Assembly: GCA_036504735.1 (NCBI GenBank)
Contig: DASXUQ010000005.1
Coordinates: 837,377-901,376 of the forward strand
From: a bacterium
GTDB taxonomy: Bacteria; Electryoneota; RPQS01
Direction of reading: 5' to 3'
Length of the DNA stretch: 64,000 nucleotides
In this document: positions 40,839 to 48,103 of the stretch, one piece after another
Layout of the letters: every line of letters starts with the position of its first letter
How positions within the stretch are numbered: the first letter of the stretch is position 1
The notes under the pieces: generated by a model
Told to the model about the DNA's origin: nothing
The model's database searches: none
The model's input: the letters and a program-made list of their open reading frames with translations, nothing else
Translations under genes and position numbers: made by a program

Positions 40839-43082
40839 TCATCGAGAGCCGTCTCCCGTAGCGGGATTTGCTTCGTCCACGCGTTCCACATGAATCACGT
40901 CTTTGATGGACTTCATGCGCTTGAACACGCGGGTGAGGTGCGGAAGGGATTTAACTTCAAGAGTAAGCTGCCCCACGGCAAACGCATCTTCGCGCTTCAT
41001 TTCCAGATACAGAATATTAACTTCTTCCTTGGCCATGGCATTGGTCAGTTCGCTTAAGAGCTTCTGCCGCTCCTTGGCGATGACGCGCACGCGCACGTTG
41101 AAAGTGGCTTCGCGGTCCACGTCCCATTCGACGCTGATGTTGCGCTCGGGGCGCTGCATGAGCACGGGGATGTTTTTGCAGTCGACGCGATGGACCGAAA
41201 CGCCGTGGCCTGTGGTGATGAATCCGGTGATGCGGTCACCCGGAAGCGGCTGACAGCAGCGGCCAAAGGTGATGGCCACGTTGGTCATGCCGTGAATGCG
41301 GACGGCAGAATCGGAGCCCTTGACGCGGCGGATAACTTTGGAGAGGATCGATCCCCAGCCCTGCTCCGCCGGCTCCTCGGCAGGCAGCACCTTGCGCAGC
41401 ACGGCCTGGGCGGTGATGTCACCCGCGCCGACCGCGGCCAGAAAACTGTTGGTCTCGGCATGACCGAAGAGCAGCGCGATTTCGGTGAGCTGCGCGTCGG
41501 TCTTCTTGATATGATACTTGGAGAACTCGCGCGTGAGAATTTCGTGGCCGAGCTTCACCGACTCGTCGTAGTGCTGCTCTTTCAGCCACTTCTTGATCTT
41601 GCTCGAGGCGCGGGTGGTGCGGACAAACTGCAGCCAGTCGAGGTTCGGACGCTGCGTAGGCGAGACGATGATTTCGACCACGTCGCCCGATTGCAATTCG
41701 CTCTTCAGCGGCGTAATCTGCCCATTGACCTTGGCGGCCATGGCATGCAGCCCGATGTCAGTATGCACGGCGAAGGCGAAGTCGACGGGCGTTGCGCCGC
41801 GCGGCAGGGGAATCACGCGGCCACGGGGCGTAAAGACGAAGATTTCTTCCTGAAAAAGATTGATCTTCAGGCTTTGCAGAAACTCGCTGGAGGTGGTGTC
41901 CTCGTTGCGGGATTCGATCAGGCCGCGCAGCCACTCCATCTGCCGGTCCATCTCCTCGCGCGTGGCGCCGCCTTCCTTGTAGCGCCAGTGGGCCGCGATG
42001 CCGATTTCGGCGGTGCGGTTCATCTCCTCGGTGCGGATCTGCACTTCGATCTTGCGGCCTTCCGGCCCGAAGACCTTGGTGTGCAGCGACTGGTACATGT
42101 TCGATTTGGGCGTGGCTACAAAGTCGGCGAACTTGCCTTCAATCGGCGTGTACAGGGAGTGAATCACCCCCAGTGCATGGTAGCAGTCCTCAATCCTTGG
42201 AACCACTACGCGCACGGCGATCAGATCGAGAATCTCTTCGAAGGAATAGCCGCGATGCTGGATCTTGCCGTAGATCGAATAGAGATGCTTGGCGCGTCCA
42301 TGCACCCGGGCGGGAATGCCCGCGCGCTGCAGTTCGCCTTCGATGCGCTCACGCACGTCCTTGACCATGCGCTCGCGCTCGCCGCGCTTCATCTGGACTT
42401 TTTCGGCCAGTTCCTTGTAGGTGCGCGGTTCGAGTACCTTAAAGGCGAGGTCTTCCAGTTCCCACTTGATCTGGTGGACGCCGAGGCGGTGAGCCAGCGG
42501 CGCGTAGACGTCGAGAGTCTCGTGGGCGATGCGTTCCTGCGTCTTGCGCGGCAGGTAGCCGATGGTCCGCATGTTGTGCAGGCGGTCGGCGAACTTGATA
42601 AGAATGACCCGCAGATCCTGCGACATCGACAGCAGCATCTTGTGGAAATTTTCGGCCTGCTTCTTTTCCTGGGACTCATACTTGAGTTCCGGGATCTTGG
42701 TCACGCCGTCCACCAGCGCCGCTACGGAATCGCCGAACTCCTTGCGCAGCGTTTCGACGGTGATATCGGTATCTTCCACCACATCGTGCAGGAATCCCGC
42801 CGCCACGGCGACGTCGCCCAGATGCAGATCGGCGATGATCTTGGCGACGGCGATGCTGTGGATGATGTAGGGCTCGCCGGAGATGCGGCGCTGTCCGAGA
42901 TGCGCTTTATAGGAAAAACAGAACGACCGCTCGAGCATATCCAGATCGGCGTCGGAAGACGCTTTGTCCACCGCCGCGCGGATGGCTTCAAACTCCCGCA
43001 CATGTTCGGGATCCATCTCATCGTAGAGTGGATCGGTGAGCGCGGGAAGTGGCGGTTTCTGTTCTGGAATGGCGGCGTCCAT
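40839..43082 (-). CDS. rel: Bifunctional (p)ppGpp synthetase/hydrolase
   Basis: A 747-residue long RSH protein. The hydrolase HD domain is intact (H75; H99-D100 in GFLHDVVEDT; E103-D104). The synthetase domain follows (about 250-365, with YSIYGKIQHRGYSFEEILDLIAVRVVV and YQSLHTKVFGPEGRKIEVQIRT). Then come a TGS domain (about 405-465, FTPRGRVIPLPRGATPVDFAF), a conserved Cys/zinc-finger-like region (FGRCCQPLPGD), and a C-terminal ACT domain (about 660-735). Both activities should be present, giving stringent-response control. It starts 87 bases after dnaB. Confidence 0.95.
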   Translation of the reverse strand: MDAAIPEQKPPLPALTDPLYDEMDPEHVREFEAIRAAVDKASSDADLDMLERSFCFSYKAHLGQRRISGEPYIIHSIAVAKIIADLHLGDVAVAAGFLHDVVEDTDITVETLRKEFGDSVAALVDGVTKIPELKYESQEKKQAENFHKMLLSMSQDLRVILIKFADRLHNMRTIGYLPRKTQERIAHETLDVYAPLAHRLGVHQIKWELEDLAFKVLEPRTYKELAEKVQMKRGERERMVKDVRERIEGELQRAGIPARVHGRAKHLYSIYGKIQHRGYSFEEILDLIAVRVVVPRIEDCYHALGVIHSLYTPIEGKFADFVATPKSNMYQSLHTKVFGPEGRKIEVQIRTEEMNRTAEIGIAAHWRYKEGGATREEMDRQMEWLRGLIESRNEDTTSSEFLQSLKINLFQEEIFVFTPRGRVIPLPRGATPVDFAFAVHTDIGLHAMAAKVNGQITPLKSELQSGDVVEIIVSPTQRPNLDWLQFVRTTRASSKIKKWLKEQHYDESVKLGHEILTREFSKYHIKKTDAQLTEIALLFGHAETNSFLAAVGAGDITAQAVLRKVLPAEEPAEQGWGSILSKVIRRVKGSDSAVRIHGMTNVAITFGRCCQPLPGDRITGFITTGHGVSVHRVDCKNIPVLMQRPERNISVEWDVDREATFNVRVRVIAKERQKLLSELTNAMAKEEVNILYLEMKREDAFAVGQLTLEVKSLPHLTRVFKRMKSIKDVIHVERVDEANPATGDGSR

Positions 43083-43169
43083 TTTCTTTCAAAAGCCAAA
43101 AAACCTAAAATCCAAAAAGCCAACGTGCGGGTGAACACAGTCTCGGACGGTCCAATGTGCAGCAAATGC

Positions 43170-44648
43170 TTAGAAGCCCGCGCCTTCTTCTTCAGGCTCG
43201 CTGTAGGCCTCTTCGCCTTCGGCCACAGGCGGCGGGGTTTCGCCGGTCATATCGGCAAACTTGGTGTATTCGCCGATGAAGGACATGGGCACGCTGCCGG
43301 TGGGACCGTTACGGTTCTTGGCGACGATCACTTCGGCCAAGTGTTCAGTGATGTCGTACTGAACGTTGGCGATTTCGTATTTCTTGACCTTCGTCTGGTC
43401 GCGGTAGACCCACGGACGGTAAATGAACATCACCATATCCGCGTCCTGCTCGATGGCGCCCGAGTCACGAAGATCGGAAAGCATAGGCTTGCGGTCGCCG
43501 CCACGGGTTTCGGGGGCACGGGAGAGCTGCGACAGGCAGATCACCGGAATGCTCAGTTCCTTGGCCAGAGCCTTAAGGGACGAACTGACGAAGGCCACCC
43601 ACTGCTGCTGGTTGTCCGCCATCTTGGGCGGCTGGATGAGCTGCAGGTAATCGATAACAACCAAGCCGATCTTGTGATCCATCCAGAGCTGCCGCGCGCG
43701 GGTGCGCAGTGACTCGATGCCCAACCCGGCGGTGTCATCGAAGTACATGGGAAGTTGGGCCAGCCGGCCCGCCGCGGCCACAAGCCGCGTCCACTCTTCG
43801 TCGCGCAGCTTGGCGGTGGTGCGCAGCTTCTGCAAAAAGATATTGGCTTCGCCGGAAAGCATACGCAGCAGGAGCTGCCGCGTTTCCATTTCCAGCGAGA
43901 AGACCGCTACCGGAGTATTCTTGTGCTCGGCGGCGGCGACGGCCATGTTCATGGCCAGCGAGGTCTTACCCATGGACGGACGGGCGGCGACAATCACAAG
44001 TTCGCCGGCGTTGAAGCCGGTGGTGAGATCGTCCAGCTTGCGGAAGCCGCTGGGCACACCGGTCACATATTCGCGGCTGAGCTTCATCTGGCTGATATAC
44101 TCCATCGTATCATGGAGCACATCATCCACCTTCATCGCATGGCGGCCACGGCGTTCGCGCAGCAGTTCCACCAGCTTTTTCTGAAGGGTTTCAAAGACCG
44201 AATCGGCGCGGGCGGCGCTGTCATACGCCTGCATGGCCGCTTCGTTGCTGACCGAGATCATGCGGCGCAGCATGGCCTTTTCGTGAACCATGCGCGCGTA
44301 ATGTTCGACGTTGGCGGCGGAAGGAACGACTTCCGCCAGTTCGGTCAGGAAAACCGGACCGCCGATCTCCTCCAGTTTGCCCATGCGCCGAAGCTGTTCG
44401 GTGACCGTAATGAGGTCAATGGGCTCATGGTGAGCGTCCAACTCGTGCATGGCGGTGTAAACCAGCGCGTGCGCGGGGCGGTAAAAGGACTTGTCATCCA
44501 GCAGATCGGCCACGCGGCTGAACGCGGACGCATCAAGGAGCAGCGCGCCTAAAAGGGCCTGTTCGCTTTCCTGCGACTGCGGCGGCGTGCGCAAGCCGTT
44601 CGTCTGAGCGTCCGTGGACTGAGATATACTTCTTGGAATACTTGGCAT
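43170..44648 (-). CDS. dnaB: Replicative DNA helicase DnaB
   Basis: A 492-residue hexameric helicase. The N-terminal helical domain starts at PPQSQESEQALLGALLLD (about 22-130). The RecA-like core has Walker A ARPSMGKTSLAMN near residue 225 and Walker B LVVIDYLQLIQ near 330; the DLRDSGAIEQDADMVMFIYRP and IVAKNRNGPTG motifs follow. A short acidic Glu-rich tail (GEEAYSEPEEEGAGF) resembles that of other DnaBs. No intein is present. It lies 21 bases after a uracil-DNA glycosylase gene. Confidence 0.96.
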   Translation of the reverse strand: MPSIPRSISQSTDAQTNGLRTPPQSQESEQALLGALLLDASAFSRVADLLDDKSFYRPAHALVYTAMHELDAHHEPIDLITVTEQLRRMGKLEEIGGPVFLTELAEVVPSAANVEHYARMVHEKAMLRRMISVSNEAAMQAYDSAARADSVFETLQKKLVELLRERRGRHAMKVDDVLHDTMEYISQMKLSREYVTGVPSGFRKLDDLTTGFNAGELVIVAARPSMGKTSLAMNMAVAAAEHKNTPVAVFSLEMETRQLLLRMLSGEANIFLQKLRTTAKLRDEEWTRLVAAAGRLAQLPMYFDDTAGLGIESLRTRARQLWMDHKIGLVVIDYLQLIQPPKMADNQQQWVAFVSSSLKALAKELSIPVICLSQLSRAPETRGGDRKPMLSDLRDSGAIEQDADMVMFIYRPWVYRDQTKVKKYEIANVQYDITEHLAEVIVAKNRNGPTGSVPMSFIGEYTKFADMTGETPPPVAEGEEAYSEPEEEGAGF

Positions 44649-44669: not shown

Positions 44670-45389
44670 TCATGATTTCTTGGTGCGATCATCATACAGG
44701 CGGCGCAGCAGTTGAAAATCTTCCTCTCCGAAGTGGAGATTTCCCATGTTGCGCAGGTAATACGCCGGATGGTACGTCACCAGCACCTCGAATCCTTCCC
44801 ACGGAAGGACGCGGCCCCGCAATTCCTTCATCGCCGAATCCACGCCGAGCAGTGCATGGGCCGCATGCTTGCCGAGGCAGACGATAATGTCCGGGTTAAT
44901 CAGGGAAAGCTGCGCCATCAGATACGGGCTGCAGGTTTCCACTTCCGCCGGGAGCGGTTCGCGGTTGTTGGGCGGGCGGCACTTGAGCACGTTGCAGATA
45001 TAGACATCCTGCTCGCGCATAAAGCCGACGCCTTCGAGAAGCTGGTTCAGCAGGCGCCCCGCGGCTCCGACAAACGGTTTGCCCTGTTTGTCTTCTTCCG
45101 CGCCGGGCGCTTCGCCGACAAAGACAATGCGCGCCTTGGGATTGCCGTCGCCGAAGACAATATGCTCGCGCGCTTTTCCGAGCGGGCAGTTCGCGCAGTT
45201 GACAATGCTCTCGCGGAACGTCTCGAGATTCTTTGGCAGAGGCTCGAGGCTTCCGGGCAGAGCGCGGCGCGCACGCGAAGTCTTTTTGGCGGAAGGTGGC
45301 AAGTAGACGCTGTCCTCAAAGAGTTCAAGGGTCTTGAAATACTCACGCGCCAGATAACGCGCCCCGGATTTCGGCGGATGGTCCGACAC
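44670..45389 (-). CDS. Uracil-DNA glycosylase, family 4 (Fe-S type)
   Basis: A 239-residue glycosylase that excises uracil from DNA. The iron-sulfur ligands are visible: C65 and C68 (NCANCPLG), C137 (LKCRPP) and C153 (ETCSPYL). The catalytic/uracil-binding motif GEAPGAEEDKQGKPFVGAAG is near residue 92, and TYHPAYYLRN near 215 matches the H-P-(S/A) motif. About 60 N-terminal residues precede the first cysteine; they are basic and of unknown function, as in other long members of the family. It starts seven bases after coaBC. Confidence 0.92.
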   Translation of the reverse strand: MSDHPPKSGARYLAREYFKTLELFEDSVYLPPSAKKTSRARRALPGSLEPLPKNLETFRESIVNCANCPLGKAREHIVFGDGNPKARIVFVGEAPGAEEDKQGKPFVGAAGRLLNQLLEGVGFMREQDVYICNVLKCRPPNNREPLPAEVETCSPYLMAQLSLINPDIIVCLGKHAAHALLGVDSAMKELRGRVLPWEGFEVLVTYHPAYYLRNMGNLHFGEEDFQLLRRLYDDRTKKS

Positions 45390-45396
45390 GGTCGGG

Positions 45397-47808
45397 CTAC
45401 TCGTCGTCCGGAATAATTTCGTTATCGGGATTCTCCGCCGCGACCCGTACCTTCACCTTCGCCACTTTCTTGGCGGCAGGTTTACGGCGGGGAACAGGAG
45501 CGGGAGCGGCCGCTGGGTCTGCCGGAGCGGGAGCTGCAGCAGGAGTGCGTTTCGCCCGTTTCGGCTTTGCTTTTGCTACGGGAGCGGCTTCGGCAACTGC
45601 AACGGGCTGTGACGGTTGTTCCGGCCTTACTGCCGGCGCAGGAGGCGGTGCCATTACCGGTGCGGGCTCGATAGCGCGAGTCGGCTCGGGCGTGTGAACA
45701 GGTTCCGGTTCACGCGCAGGTTCCGCACCCCGAATGGGTTCAGGTGTACGCGCAGGTTCCGGCCTGCGTGCGGCTGGTGGCCTCGGTGCAGGCGCGGGCT
45801 TGCGAGCAGGTACCGGCGGGCGAGCAGGCGCAGGCGTACGAACCGGCGGCTCAGGAGCCACAGCGACGGGCTGGGGAGCAGCTATGACCGGCGATTCCTG
45901 AACGGCGCCAGACTCATTCACAGGCTGTTCTCCACCCACTGCCGCCTGACGCTTGGCACGGGCGCGCTGAGCGCGGCGGCCTCCGCGACGGCCACGGGAC
46001 TTCTTTGTGCCGGGCGCTCCCGGAATGGGAGTTCCGCTGTTGGGGAACGGCAGTTCCGCCGGGCTATCTATACTTGAACCCGGAAGATCCGTGGCGGTTT
46101 CGGCAACCGAAACGCGAGCACTCTCGGCAGCAACCGGCGGCGCCACACGCTCGGGAACATTCTGGCGGACGGGTGTGGGAACCGGCGGGCGAACAGGCGG
46201 ACGTACAGGCTGCGACTCGGGTACGGGAGCATGCTCCACAACCGGAGCAGGCGCATGCGCGGCGACGGTTTCCTGCGGACGCGGTGCGGGTTGAGGCACA
46301 GGACCGTGCGGCTTGTTGCGGTCGCGATCACGGTCGCGATCACGATGCTTTTTGTGCCGGCGGCTGTTGCGATCCCCCTGCGGGAACGGCTGGCCGGACG
46401 GCTGACCGTGAGCGGGCGCGGGCTGCTGCGGGGAGAAACGCTCCTCGAGCGCGGCGTCTTCGTCGATCTCCAGACCATCGAGATTCAGACCACCCAGATC
46501 CTCTTCCTCATCGAGCAGCAGCACTTCTTCCGGTTCGGGTTCAGGCTCGGGGTTGCGGTAAATTTCGATGACCGCATTCAGGATGTCGCGCGCGGCTTCC
46601 CGTTTCGATTGCAGCGGCAATTCGGTGACACGTCCCGTGCGGTGAATAATCAGGACCTGATTGGTCTCGACCGCAAACCCGCTGCCCTGAGCGAGTGGAT
46701 TGTTGGCCACCACGATATCGAGATGCTTGTCACGTAGCTTCTTCAGCGCGTTTTCCAGCAGATTTTCGGTCTCGAGGGCAAATCCCACCACGATGCGGTC
46801 GTTCTTCTTCTCGGCCAGACTTTTGAGAATGTCTTCCGTGGCAACGAGCTGGATCTCAGGCGAAGGCTCGCCCTTCTTGATCTTGTGCTCGGCCGTCTTG
46901 GCAAAGGTATAATCGGCGACGGCGGCGGCCATCAGCACCACCTTGGACTGCGCATATTCCTGTTTGACCGCGCTGGCCATTTCGGCGGCGGTGGTCACGC
47001 GGCGCAGCCGTACTCCGGTGGGCGGAATGACGTCGGTCGGGCCGTGAATCAGCACCACGTCGGCGCCGCGTTCACGGGCTTCTTCGGCCAGGGCAAAGCC
47101 CATGCGACCGGTGGAGCGATTGGTGAGCACGCGGACGGGATCCCACGATTCTTCGGTGCGTCCGCCGGTCACGAGCACACGCACGCCGCGCAGGTCCTGC
47201 GGAGCGGAGAGCATGTGACTCACTTCGCGGAAAATGGAGTCGAGATCGGCGAGGCGGCCAATGCCGTCTTCTTCGCCGGGCCGGGCCATCTGGCCCTCTT
47301 CGGGCATTACGAAGCGGAACCCACGGCGCTTGAGCACCGCCAGATTATCCTGCGTGGCCGGGTTTGCCCACATGCGATGGTTCATCGCCGGGCAGAGCAG
47401 GCGCGGACGATCCAGCGTGAGCATAATGGTGGTGAGCAGATCGTCGGCAAAGCCCGCCGCCAGGCGCGCCATGTGATTGGCGGTGGCGGGAGCGATGACG
47501 GCCAGATCCGGCCACGTGGCCATCTCCGTATGCCACGGCGAGAAGTCGCCGTGATCGGGAAACATCTCGATAAAGACGTGCCGTCCGGTGATCGTTTCGA
47601 AGGTCAGCGGCGCGACAAACTTCTCGGCGGCGGAGGTCATGACAACCTGTACCCGCGCACCCTGTTTGACAAACATCCGGGTCAGTTCGACCGCCTTATA
47701 GGCGGCGATGCCCCCGCATACGCCCAGCAATATCTTTCGGCCGTTCAGTTCCGGTCCCGGCTTCACGCCCGGGCGCGAAGGGGGATTACCCTTCATAGTA
47801 GAATTCAA
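45397..47808 (-). CDS. coaBC: CoaBC with an unusual long disordered C-terminal tail
   Basis: An 803-residue protein; CoaBC is normally about 400. Residues 24-200 are the CoaC flavin decarboxylase (GVCGGIAAYKAVEL, active-site His93 in PWHTEM, PAMNHRMW at 140-147). Residues 205-416 are the CoaB ligase (TGGRTEESWDPVRVLTNRS, AAAVADY, KIKK at 309-312). Together they make 4'-phosphopantetheine from phosphopantothenate, cysteine and CTP. The remaining 384 residues are predicted disordered: an acidic patch (419-456), then Pro/Ala/Glu-rich sequence with basic patches at 483-498 (RHKKHRDRDRDRDR), 602-621 (KKSRGRRGGRRAQRARAKRQ) and 747-786. The frame is unbroken, with no stop between the parts. The start overlaps rpoZ by 23 bases; an ATG four codons in is also possible. 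Confidence 0.9.
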   Translation of the reverse strand: MNSTMKGNPPSRPGVKPGPELNGRKILLGVCGGIAAYKAVELTRMFVKQGARVQVVMTSAAEKFVAPLTFETITGRHVFIEMFPDHGDFSPWHTEMATWPDLAVIAPATANHMARLAAGFADDLLTTIMLTLDRPRLLCPAMNHRMWANPATQDNLAVLKRRGFRFVMPEEGQMARPGEEDGIGRLADLDSIFREVSHMLSAPQDLRGVRVLVTGGRTEESWDPVRVLTNRSTGRMGFALAEEARERGADVVLIHGPTDVIPPTGVRLRRVTTAAEMASAVKQEYAQSKVVLMAAAVADYTFAKTAEHKIKKGEPSPEIQLVATEDILKSLAEKKNDRIVVGFALETENLLENALKKLRDKHLDIVVANNPLAQGSGFAVETNQVLIIHRTGRVTELPLQSKREAARDILNAVIEIYRNPEPEPEPEEVLLLDEEEDLGGLNLDGLEIDEDAALEERFSPQQPAPAHGQPSGQPFPQGDRNSRRHKKHRDRDRDRDRNKPHGPVPQPAPRPQETVAAHAPAPVVEHAPVPESQPVRPPVRPPVPTPVRQNVPERVAPPVAAESARVSVAETATDLPGSSIDSPAELPFPNSGTPIPGAPGTKKSRGRRGGRRAQRARAKRQAAVGGEQPVNESGAVQESPVIAAPQPVAVAPEPPVRTPAPARPPVPARKPAPAPRPPAARRPEPARTPEPIRGAEPAREPEPVHTPEPTRAIEPAPVMAPPPAPAVRPEQPSQPVAVAEAAPVAKAKPKRAKRTPAAAPAPADPAAAPAPVPRRKPAAKKVAKVKVRVAAENPDNEIIPDDE

Positions 47809-48103
47809 TTTTCTTCTCTTTCATTTCAGCCATAGAGAGCACGACCGGCTTGACGAACTTGGGCACGGGACGGTTGATGTGCTCCACGGGTTCGGGCGGA
47901 GCGGCGTCGTCGGATTCTTCCGCGCGCGCTCGGGCCGCAGCCTGCTCCAGCATTTCCGTCTGCCCAAGGTGGCGGTCAATCAGGCGCTTCTGCAACTCGC
48001 CGACCTGGCGTCCACGCTTAGCGATTACCAGCACCGCTTCATAAATGTTAAGGGCGCCTTCAAGGAAATCTTCGGGAAAGTACTCTTCTGCTCTCATGGT
48101 CAT
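47786..48103 (-). CDS. rpoZ: RNA polymerase omega subunit
   Basis: A 105-residue protein with the omega-type core EGALNIYEAVLVIAKRGRQVGELQKRL at residues 15-41, corresponding to the helix that contacts the beta-prime subunit. The gmk-rpoZ-coaBC order supports the call. The C-terminal half is longer than in E. coli and contains a conserved-looking VPKFVKPVVLSMAEMKEKKIEFYYEG segment. It starts 16 bases after gmk and overlaps coaBC. Confidence 0.85.
   Translation of the reverse strand: MTMRAEEYFPEDFLEGALNIYEAVLVIAKRGRQVGELQKRLIDRHLGQTEMLEQAAARARAEESDDAAPPEPVEHINRPVPKFVKPVVLSMAEMKEKKIEFYYEG

Follow-up and report, generated by a model that had tools for sequence, protein, structure and literature searches.

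In mycobacteria, twelve CoaBC subunits assemble into one particle around a CoaC core (PMC7794376). Known bacterial CoaBC proteins end at about 400–415 residues, whereas the CoaBC described here continues into a long tail. In yeast, the PPC decarboxylase subunits Hal3 and Vhs3 carry acidic C-terminal tails that are required for a second function and are about 47–68% acidic in the tabulated families (PMC9604783). In RNase E, charge blocks and arginine-rich sites have been linked to RNA binding and condensation (PMC4435900; PMC10412687), while AlgP and PhaF have H1-like Lys/Pro/Ala tails that help to position granules and that connect a body with polyphosphate granules or with the nucleoid (PMC9239181). 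Our search of the open-access literature found no paper on a bacterial CoaBC tail. To our knowledge, there is also no earlier bacterial parallel to the tailed Hal3 and Vhs3.

Enzyme core and reading frame

The coaBC gene of the window (the whole stretch of 64,000 nucleotides analysed here) is an unbroken frame, and an earlier note on this DNA read it as CoaBC fused in frame to a long, disordered tail with charged patches; the fusion holds in the window and in every family member compared with it (Table 1). Two starts are possible, TTG 47808, which gives 803 amino acids, and ATG 47796, which gives 799. The TTG aligns with a TTG in G001, G002, G004 and G006 (five family genes, including that of the window). 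At the position matching 47796 most relatives have an ATG, but G004 and G006 do not.

Table 1. Features of coaBC and its immediate neighbours, in window coordinates (all on the minus strand)
Feature	Residues	Position	Remarks
coaBC open frame with tail	1-803	45397..47808	803 codons from TTG 47808; stop 45399-45397
CoaBC enzyme core	about 21-418	46555..47748	CoaC flavoprotein domain, then CoaB ligase domain
Disordered C-terminal tail	418-803	45400..46557	from composition and AlphaFold2 model
Acidic block	418-457	46438..46557	begins PEPEPEPE; contains acidic-hydrophobic LDGLE
First basic patch with Arg/Asp repeat	481-499	46312..46368	NSRRHKKHRDRDRDRDRNK; peculiar to the window genome
Basic block	601-621	45946..46008	TKKSRGRRGGRRAQRARAKRQ; recovered by profile in 11/11 family genomes
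Invariant hexapeptide RRGGRR	607-612	45973..45990	inside basic block 601-621
Lys/Ala/Pro-rich basic segment	746-789	45442..45573	H1-like composition
rpoZ (RNA polymerase omega)		47786..48103	upstream; overlaps the coaBC start
udg (uracil-DNA glycosylase superfamily)		44670..45389	starts 7 bases past the coaBC stop

The protein belongs with CoaBC, as the CoaC and CoaB DFP domains stand in order and above curated cut-offs (Pfam Flavoprotein at 25–176, DFP at 206–388) and the TIGR00521 coaBC_dfp equivalog model, which has a cut-off of 220, scores 408 bits over residues 21–413. The nearest solved chain to the core is 6TGV, the full-length CoaBC of M. smegmatis, over residues 24–414. Among the residues that we take to be those of the active site, His 93, Asn 230 and Lys 309/311/312 are invariant in two CoaBC alignments, and Asn 143 (in PAMN) is invariant in the family alignment. 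The CoaC flap (about residues 172–186, MARPGEEDGIGR) is without the cysteine of LACG, the majority consensus among distant CoaBC proteins; this cysteine is also missing at the aligned place in M. smegmatis 6TGV, so its absence in the window is not unusual. The genome holds one PF04127 gene, the coaBC of the window, and the tail is therefore no ornament on an idle paralogue.

The tail and its distribution

The tail of the window's CoaBC comprises about 382–385 residues and is the longest in the family. Its disorder is supported by its composition, with no cysteine, 0.8% aromatic residues and 22% proline, alongside 13% Asp and Glu. In an AlphaFold2 model the last helix spans residues 402–418, the folded part ends at 418 and the remainder is modelled as coil, nearly all of it at pLDDT below 50, although the input alignment contained no tail relatives, so that low values were expected anyway and are weak evidence taken alone. 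The acidic start, the Arg/Asp repeat and the Arg/Gly/Lys patch that the earlier note described are all present, and the likeness that it saw to the charge-block layout of RNase E or H1-like tails holds. Its Lys-rich end stands as a Lys-rich stretch (746–789), but the final residues of the protein are acidic (NPDNEIIPDDE), and the last 40 residues have a net charge of +1 as against +7 to +12 in the relatives. The features that it placed in the foreground, the Arg/Asp repeat and the PEP/PAP expansions, exist in the window but proved to be specific to this genome, the repeat and most of the Pro/Ala expansions being absent from the relatives. The conserved RRGGRR lies within the Arg/Gly/Lys patch of the earlier note and was not singled out there.

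An in-frame CoaBC tail was found in 11 of 11 family genomes examined, which represent eight genera and include that of the window; in two of them (G008 and G009) coaBC is split or cut by contig ends, with the whole tail still visible. The CoaBC core of the relatives is 68–81% identical to that of the window, and their tails measure 169–240 residues, compared with 382 in the window by the same measure. In the sister family (two genomes) the tails shrink to 35 and 41 mostly basic residues, and the remaining 25 CoaBC genes of the phylum, with stop-to-stop frames of 400–439 codons, have no long tail. Beyond the family, 14 of the 15 longest CoaBC frames checked among the matches listed from a search of 232 genomes extend 11 residues or fewer past the domain, although those listed were a part of the 213 matches in all, which leaves room for rare long tails elsewhere. 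The exception among the 15, in another phylum (L191 of G231), has a 40-residue basic C-terminal tail (RAARTGRGKARAGS...) that is apparently independent. Long tails are not a habit of the proteome in a 400-kb sample of the relative G007, where two of 310 open frames passed a strict tail test that undercounts (the window's own CoaBC scores only 2 on it). The tail is thus a lineage-restricted and genuine in-frame fusion.

That the tail might instead reflect a frameshift, a false join in the assembly or a second gene downstream is scarcely credible, because the same in-frame fusion recurs in 11 genomes of eight genera, which refutes an artefact unless all assemblies share one error. The tail also contains a single Met, near residue 720. 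The arrangement that would have spoken for two genes, a stop after about residue 416 with a separate downstream start in relatives, was sought in the family and not found.

The gene lies, as the earlier note had it, between rpoZ and a DNA-repair gene, the latter being the uracil-DNA glycosylase gene. The family order, as far as contigs reach, is mutS, porV-like, yicC, gmk, rpoZ, coaBC, udg, dnaB and relA, and the coaBC portion of this order also occurs in the tail-less families f3, f5 and f7. The DNA-repair neighbour was therefore discounted as a hint of what the tail does: phylum members without a tail share this ancestral order, which does not depend on the tail, so that the neighbours provide no evidence for a link to DNA. 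The coaBC stop and the udg start share a four-base overlap (ATGA or GTGA) in seven of the 13 genomes compared for order, as against a gap of 7 bases in the window. Judged from this comparison of gene orders, the tail grew inside an old operon. An open frame of 840 codons (41190–43712, plus strand) lies antisense to the relA/spoT–dnaB region and probably arises from the codon bias of GC-rich DNA.

Conservation within the tail

Most of the tail is free to vary. Mean pairwise column identity is 11% across the 11 family tails, length differs twofold, microrepeats are visible in the tail DNA, and pN/pS among related genomes reaches 0.42–0.68 in the tail compared with 0.11–0.27 in the core, ratios that are rough since silent sites are near saturation. 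By these ratios, constraint on the tail is relaxed relative to the core but still present.

Within this variable sequence, the hexapeptide RRGGRR is identical in 11 of 11 tails. Its codons differ in 247 of 330 pairwise comparisons, every one of them silent, and common descent alone fails to explain the identity because the codons have diverged this far. In 1000 shuffles, made over whole tails or within 20-residue blocks and ignoring kinship, the longest word common to all tails was 2–3 residues, compared with the six observed. Judging from these codons and shuffles, RRGGRR is under purifying selection. The Arg residues of the motif are never exchanged for Lys, while elsewhere Lys is commoner than Arg in eight of the 11 tails, a pattern that would point to specific recognition over bulk charge. 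An invariant, Arg-only motif in an otherwise free-running tail is what is new here and is, at the level of sequence, the strongest evidence.

The order of charges is kept in all 11 tails as well: net charge is –8 to –17 over the first 45 residues and +9 to +11 over the motif block, and it is +7 to +12 over the last 40 residues in every family tail except that of the window. A second element, the LDGLE of the acidic block, recurs as [ILMF]xG[LF][DE] in six of the 11 tails, a count that none of 2000 shuffles reached, and may be regarded as a second, weaker candidate short linear motif.

These patterns bear on whether the tail could be mostly neutral C-terminal growth, in which slippage and repeat expansion filled the former gap between coaBC and udg with largely functionless sequence, harmful compositions alone being selected against. 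The twofold range of length, the DNA microrepeats and the pN/pS of 0.4–0.7 would fit such an origin, as would the fact that the window genome has the longest tail, with expansions that it does not share. We nevertheless consider it very unlikely, given a hexapeptide that stays invariant despite saturated silent change and a charge order kept throughout the family. The occurrence of the tail in every member, in frame and with the invariant hexapeptide, is more than chance, and on this evidence from the sequences the tail is kept by selection.

The motif is confined largely to this setting. A profile of the 26-residue block surrounding it recovers coaBC in 11 of 11 family genomes (E ≤ 2e-7) and, across 39 genomes of the phylum, finds nothing outside coaBC better than E = 0.07; the same block has no match among PDB sequences. 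RRGGRR as a widespread genomic element was rejected: a scan of the window genome with CGN codons only, which overlooks the AGR codons that profile searches do not, gave eight occurrences against eight in the reversed control, and sampled matches outside coaBC fall in frames overlapped by longer ones, a 424-codon frame in G001 excepted. The literature on RRGGRR yielded just synthetic antimicrobial or cell-penetrating peptides and other unrelated papers.

One other protein of the family has a comparable tail. In the 400-kb sample of G007, the sole identifiable tailed frame passing the strict test is a homologue of PSP1/RicT, the tail of which repeats the layout of acidic, basic and RRGGRR parts seen in CoaBC. 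PSP1/RicT and CoaBC are unrelated proteins; the former homologues (L134–L145) have basic C-terminal tails, with RRGGRR in G004, G005 and G007 and KRGGRRR in G010. RicT acts with RNase Y in RNA cleavage in B. subtilis (PMC10470536), and the presence of RRGGRR in its homologue leans, by analogy and without proof, towards RNA; it may be that CoaBC and PSP1/RicT, where they share the motif, also share a ligand. The PSP1/RicT of the window genome (G000:C5:564116-565243, outside the window) has KKKRKRRRHKK and no RRGGRR. RNase E/G is short and has no scaffold tail in the 12 of 12 genomes in which its C-terminus was read (L121–L133); a tail borrowed from RNase E/G is ruled out, since that protein is separate and tail-less.

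Possible roles and likeness to known systems

It is tempting to speculate that the tail is a lineage-specific tether on a probably 12-subunit CoaBC, in which RRGGRR docks a partner, likeliest RNA, a ribonucleoprotein or the nucleoid surface, and the acidic block acts as a counterweight. We hold this reading tentatively, at a little short of even confidence. If the oligomer is like that of mycobacterial CoaBC, each particle would display twelve flexible arms, each running from the acidic block through a variable linker to the RRGGRR docking motif and a basic end. RRGGRR and its flanking basic residues would bind the specific partner, with polyphosphate as an alternative polyanion ligand, and the acidic block near the enzyme would keep the enzyme clear of the basic part and set a salt- or ligand-dependent self-association. 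The binding partner, the localisation and the scaffold role are what we infer, from a family comparison of 11 genomes. RRGGRR could bind a protein or a membrane in place of RNA, and because RNase E/G is short and tail-less, there is no known degradosome hub from which to borrow. The restriction of RRGGRR in PSP1 to part of the family, with the window genome lacking it, counts against the tether.

Alternatively, the tail might be a docking or regulatory arm of the Hal3 kind, in which one or two proteins would recognise the acidic-hydrophobic element and RRGGRR as short linear motifs, so that the arm controls the activity of CoaBC or gives it a second job. The exactness of RRGGRR, with Arg never replaced by Lys, suggests specific recognition, the second element was not matched by shuffling, and acidic C-terminal tails are needed for the second function of Hal3 and Vhs3 (PMC9604783). 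That element is missing from about half of the family, however, and the strongly positive blocks and H1-like end suit polyanions at least equally; we regard such an arm as somewhat unlikely, if well worth weighing. Slightly less probable still is the bolder proposal that CoaBC moonlights as a scaffold whose twelve arms bind RNA or the nucleoid; it would then be a bacterial counterpart of Hal3, with RRGGRR as the docking motif that couples the making of coenzyme A to RNA or to the organisation of the genome.

Or, perhaps the tail needs no outside partner and serves as an entropic or solubility arm or as a self-assembly device, in which acidic blocks pair with basic blocks of neighbouring subunits and so tune the oligomer or drive the condensation of CoaBC itself. 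Every family member combines a near-neutral net charge with segregated blocks, and pairing of charge blocks has been proposed for the homotypic phase separation of RNase E (PMC10412687). Basic residues outside the motif switch between Lys and Arg, and self-assembly would not account for a hexapeptide that stays exactly RRGGRR; we think self-assembly distinctly unlikely. Returning to the tether and to the earlier note, whose interpretation was plausible and is partly supported, the nucleic-acid binding, condensation and moonlighting that it raised are likewise things that we infer. In any event, a conserved enzyme of central metabolism has, in one lineage, gained a disordered tail that appears to be selected and has a single invariant motif, which offers a small and tractable case of a metabolic enzyme becoming tethered or gaining a second role.

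Set beside known systems, the protein shares its whole enzyme core with known bacterial CoaBC (TIGR00521; the 6TGV dodecamer). Like the KPAA tails of AlgP and PhaF, its tail is disordered and rich in Lys, Pro and Ala, but it is bipolar and contains RRGGRR, and its segment 746–789 is without regular KPAA units. Like the RNase E scaffold, it is disordered, biased in composition and repeat-bearing, with a few conserved microdomains in fast-changing sequence and with alternating charge blocks, the arginine-rich sites of RNase E being those that bind RNA; it differs in that it is attached to CoaBC rather than to an RNase E catalytic domain and in that no named RNase E microdomain was identified in it. 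Yeast Hal3/Sis2 and Vhs3 resemble it in being flavoproteins of the same step of coenzyme A biosynthesis with a charged C-terminal addition. Hal3 tails, however, are predominantly acidic and regulate the phosphatase Ppz1, whereas the CoaBC tail, with 13% Asp and Glu, is bipolar, acidic and then basic, and carries RRGGRR on a bifunctional enzyme.
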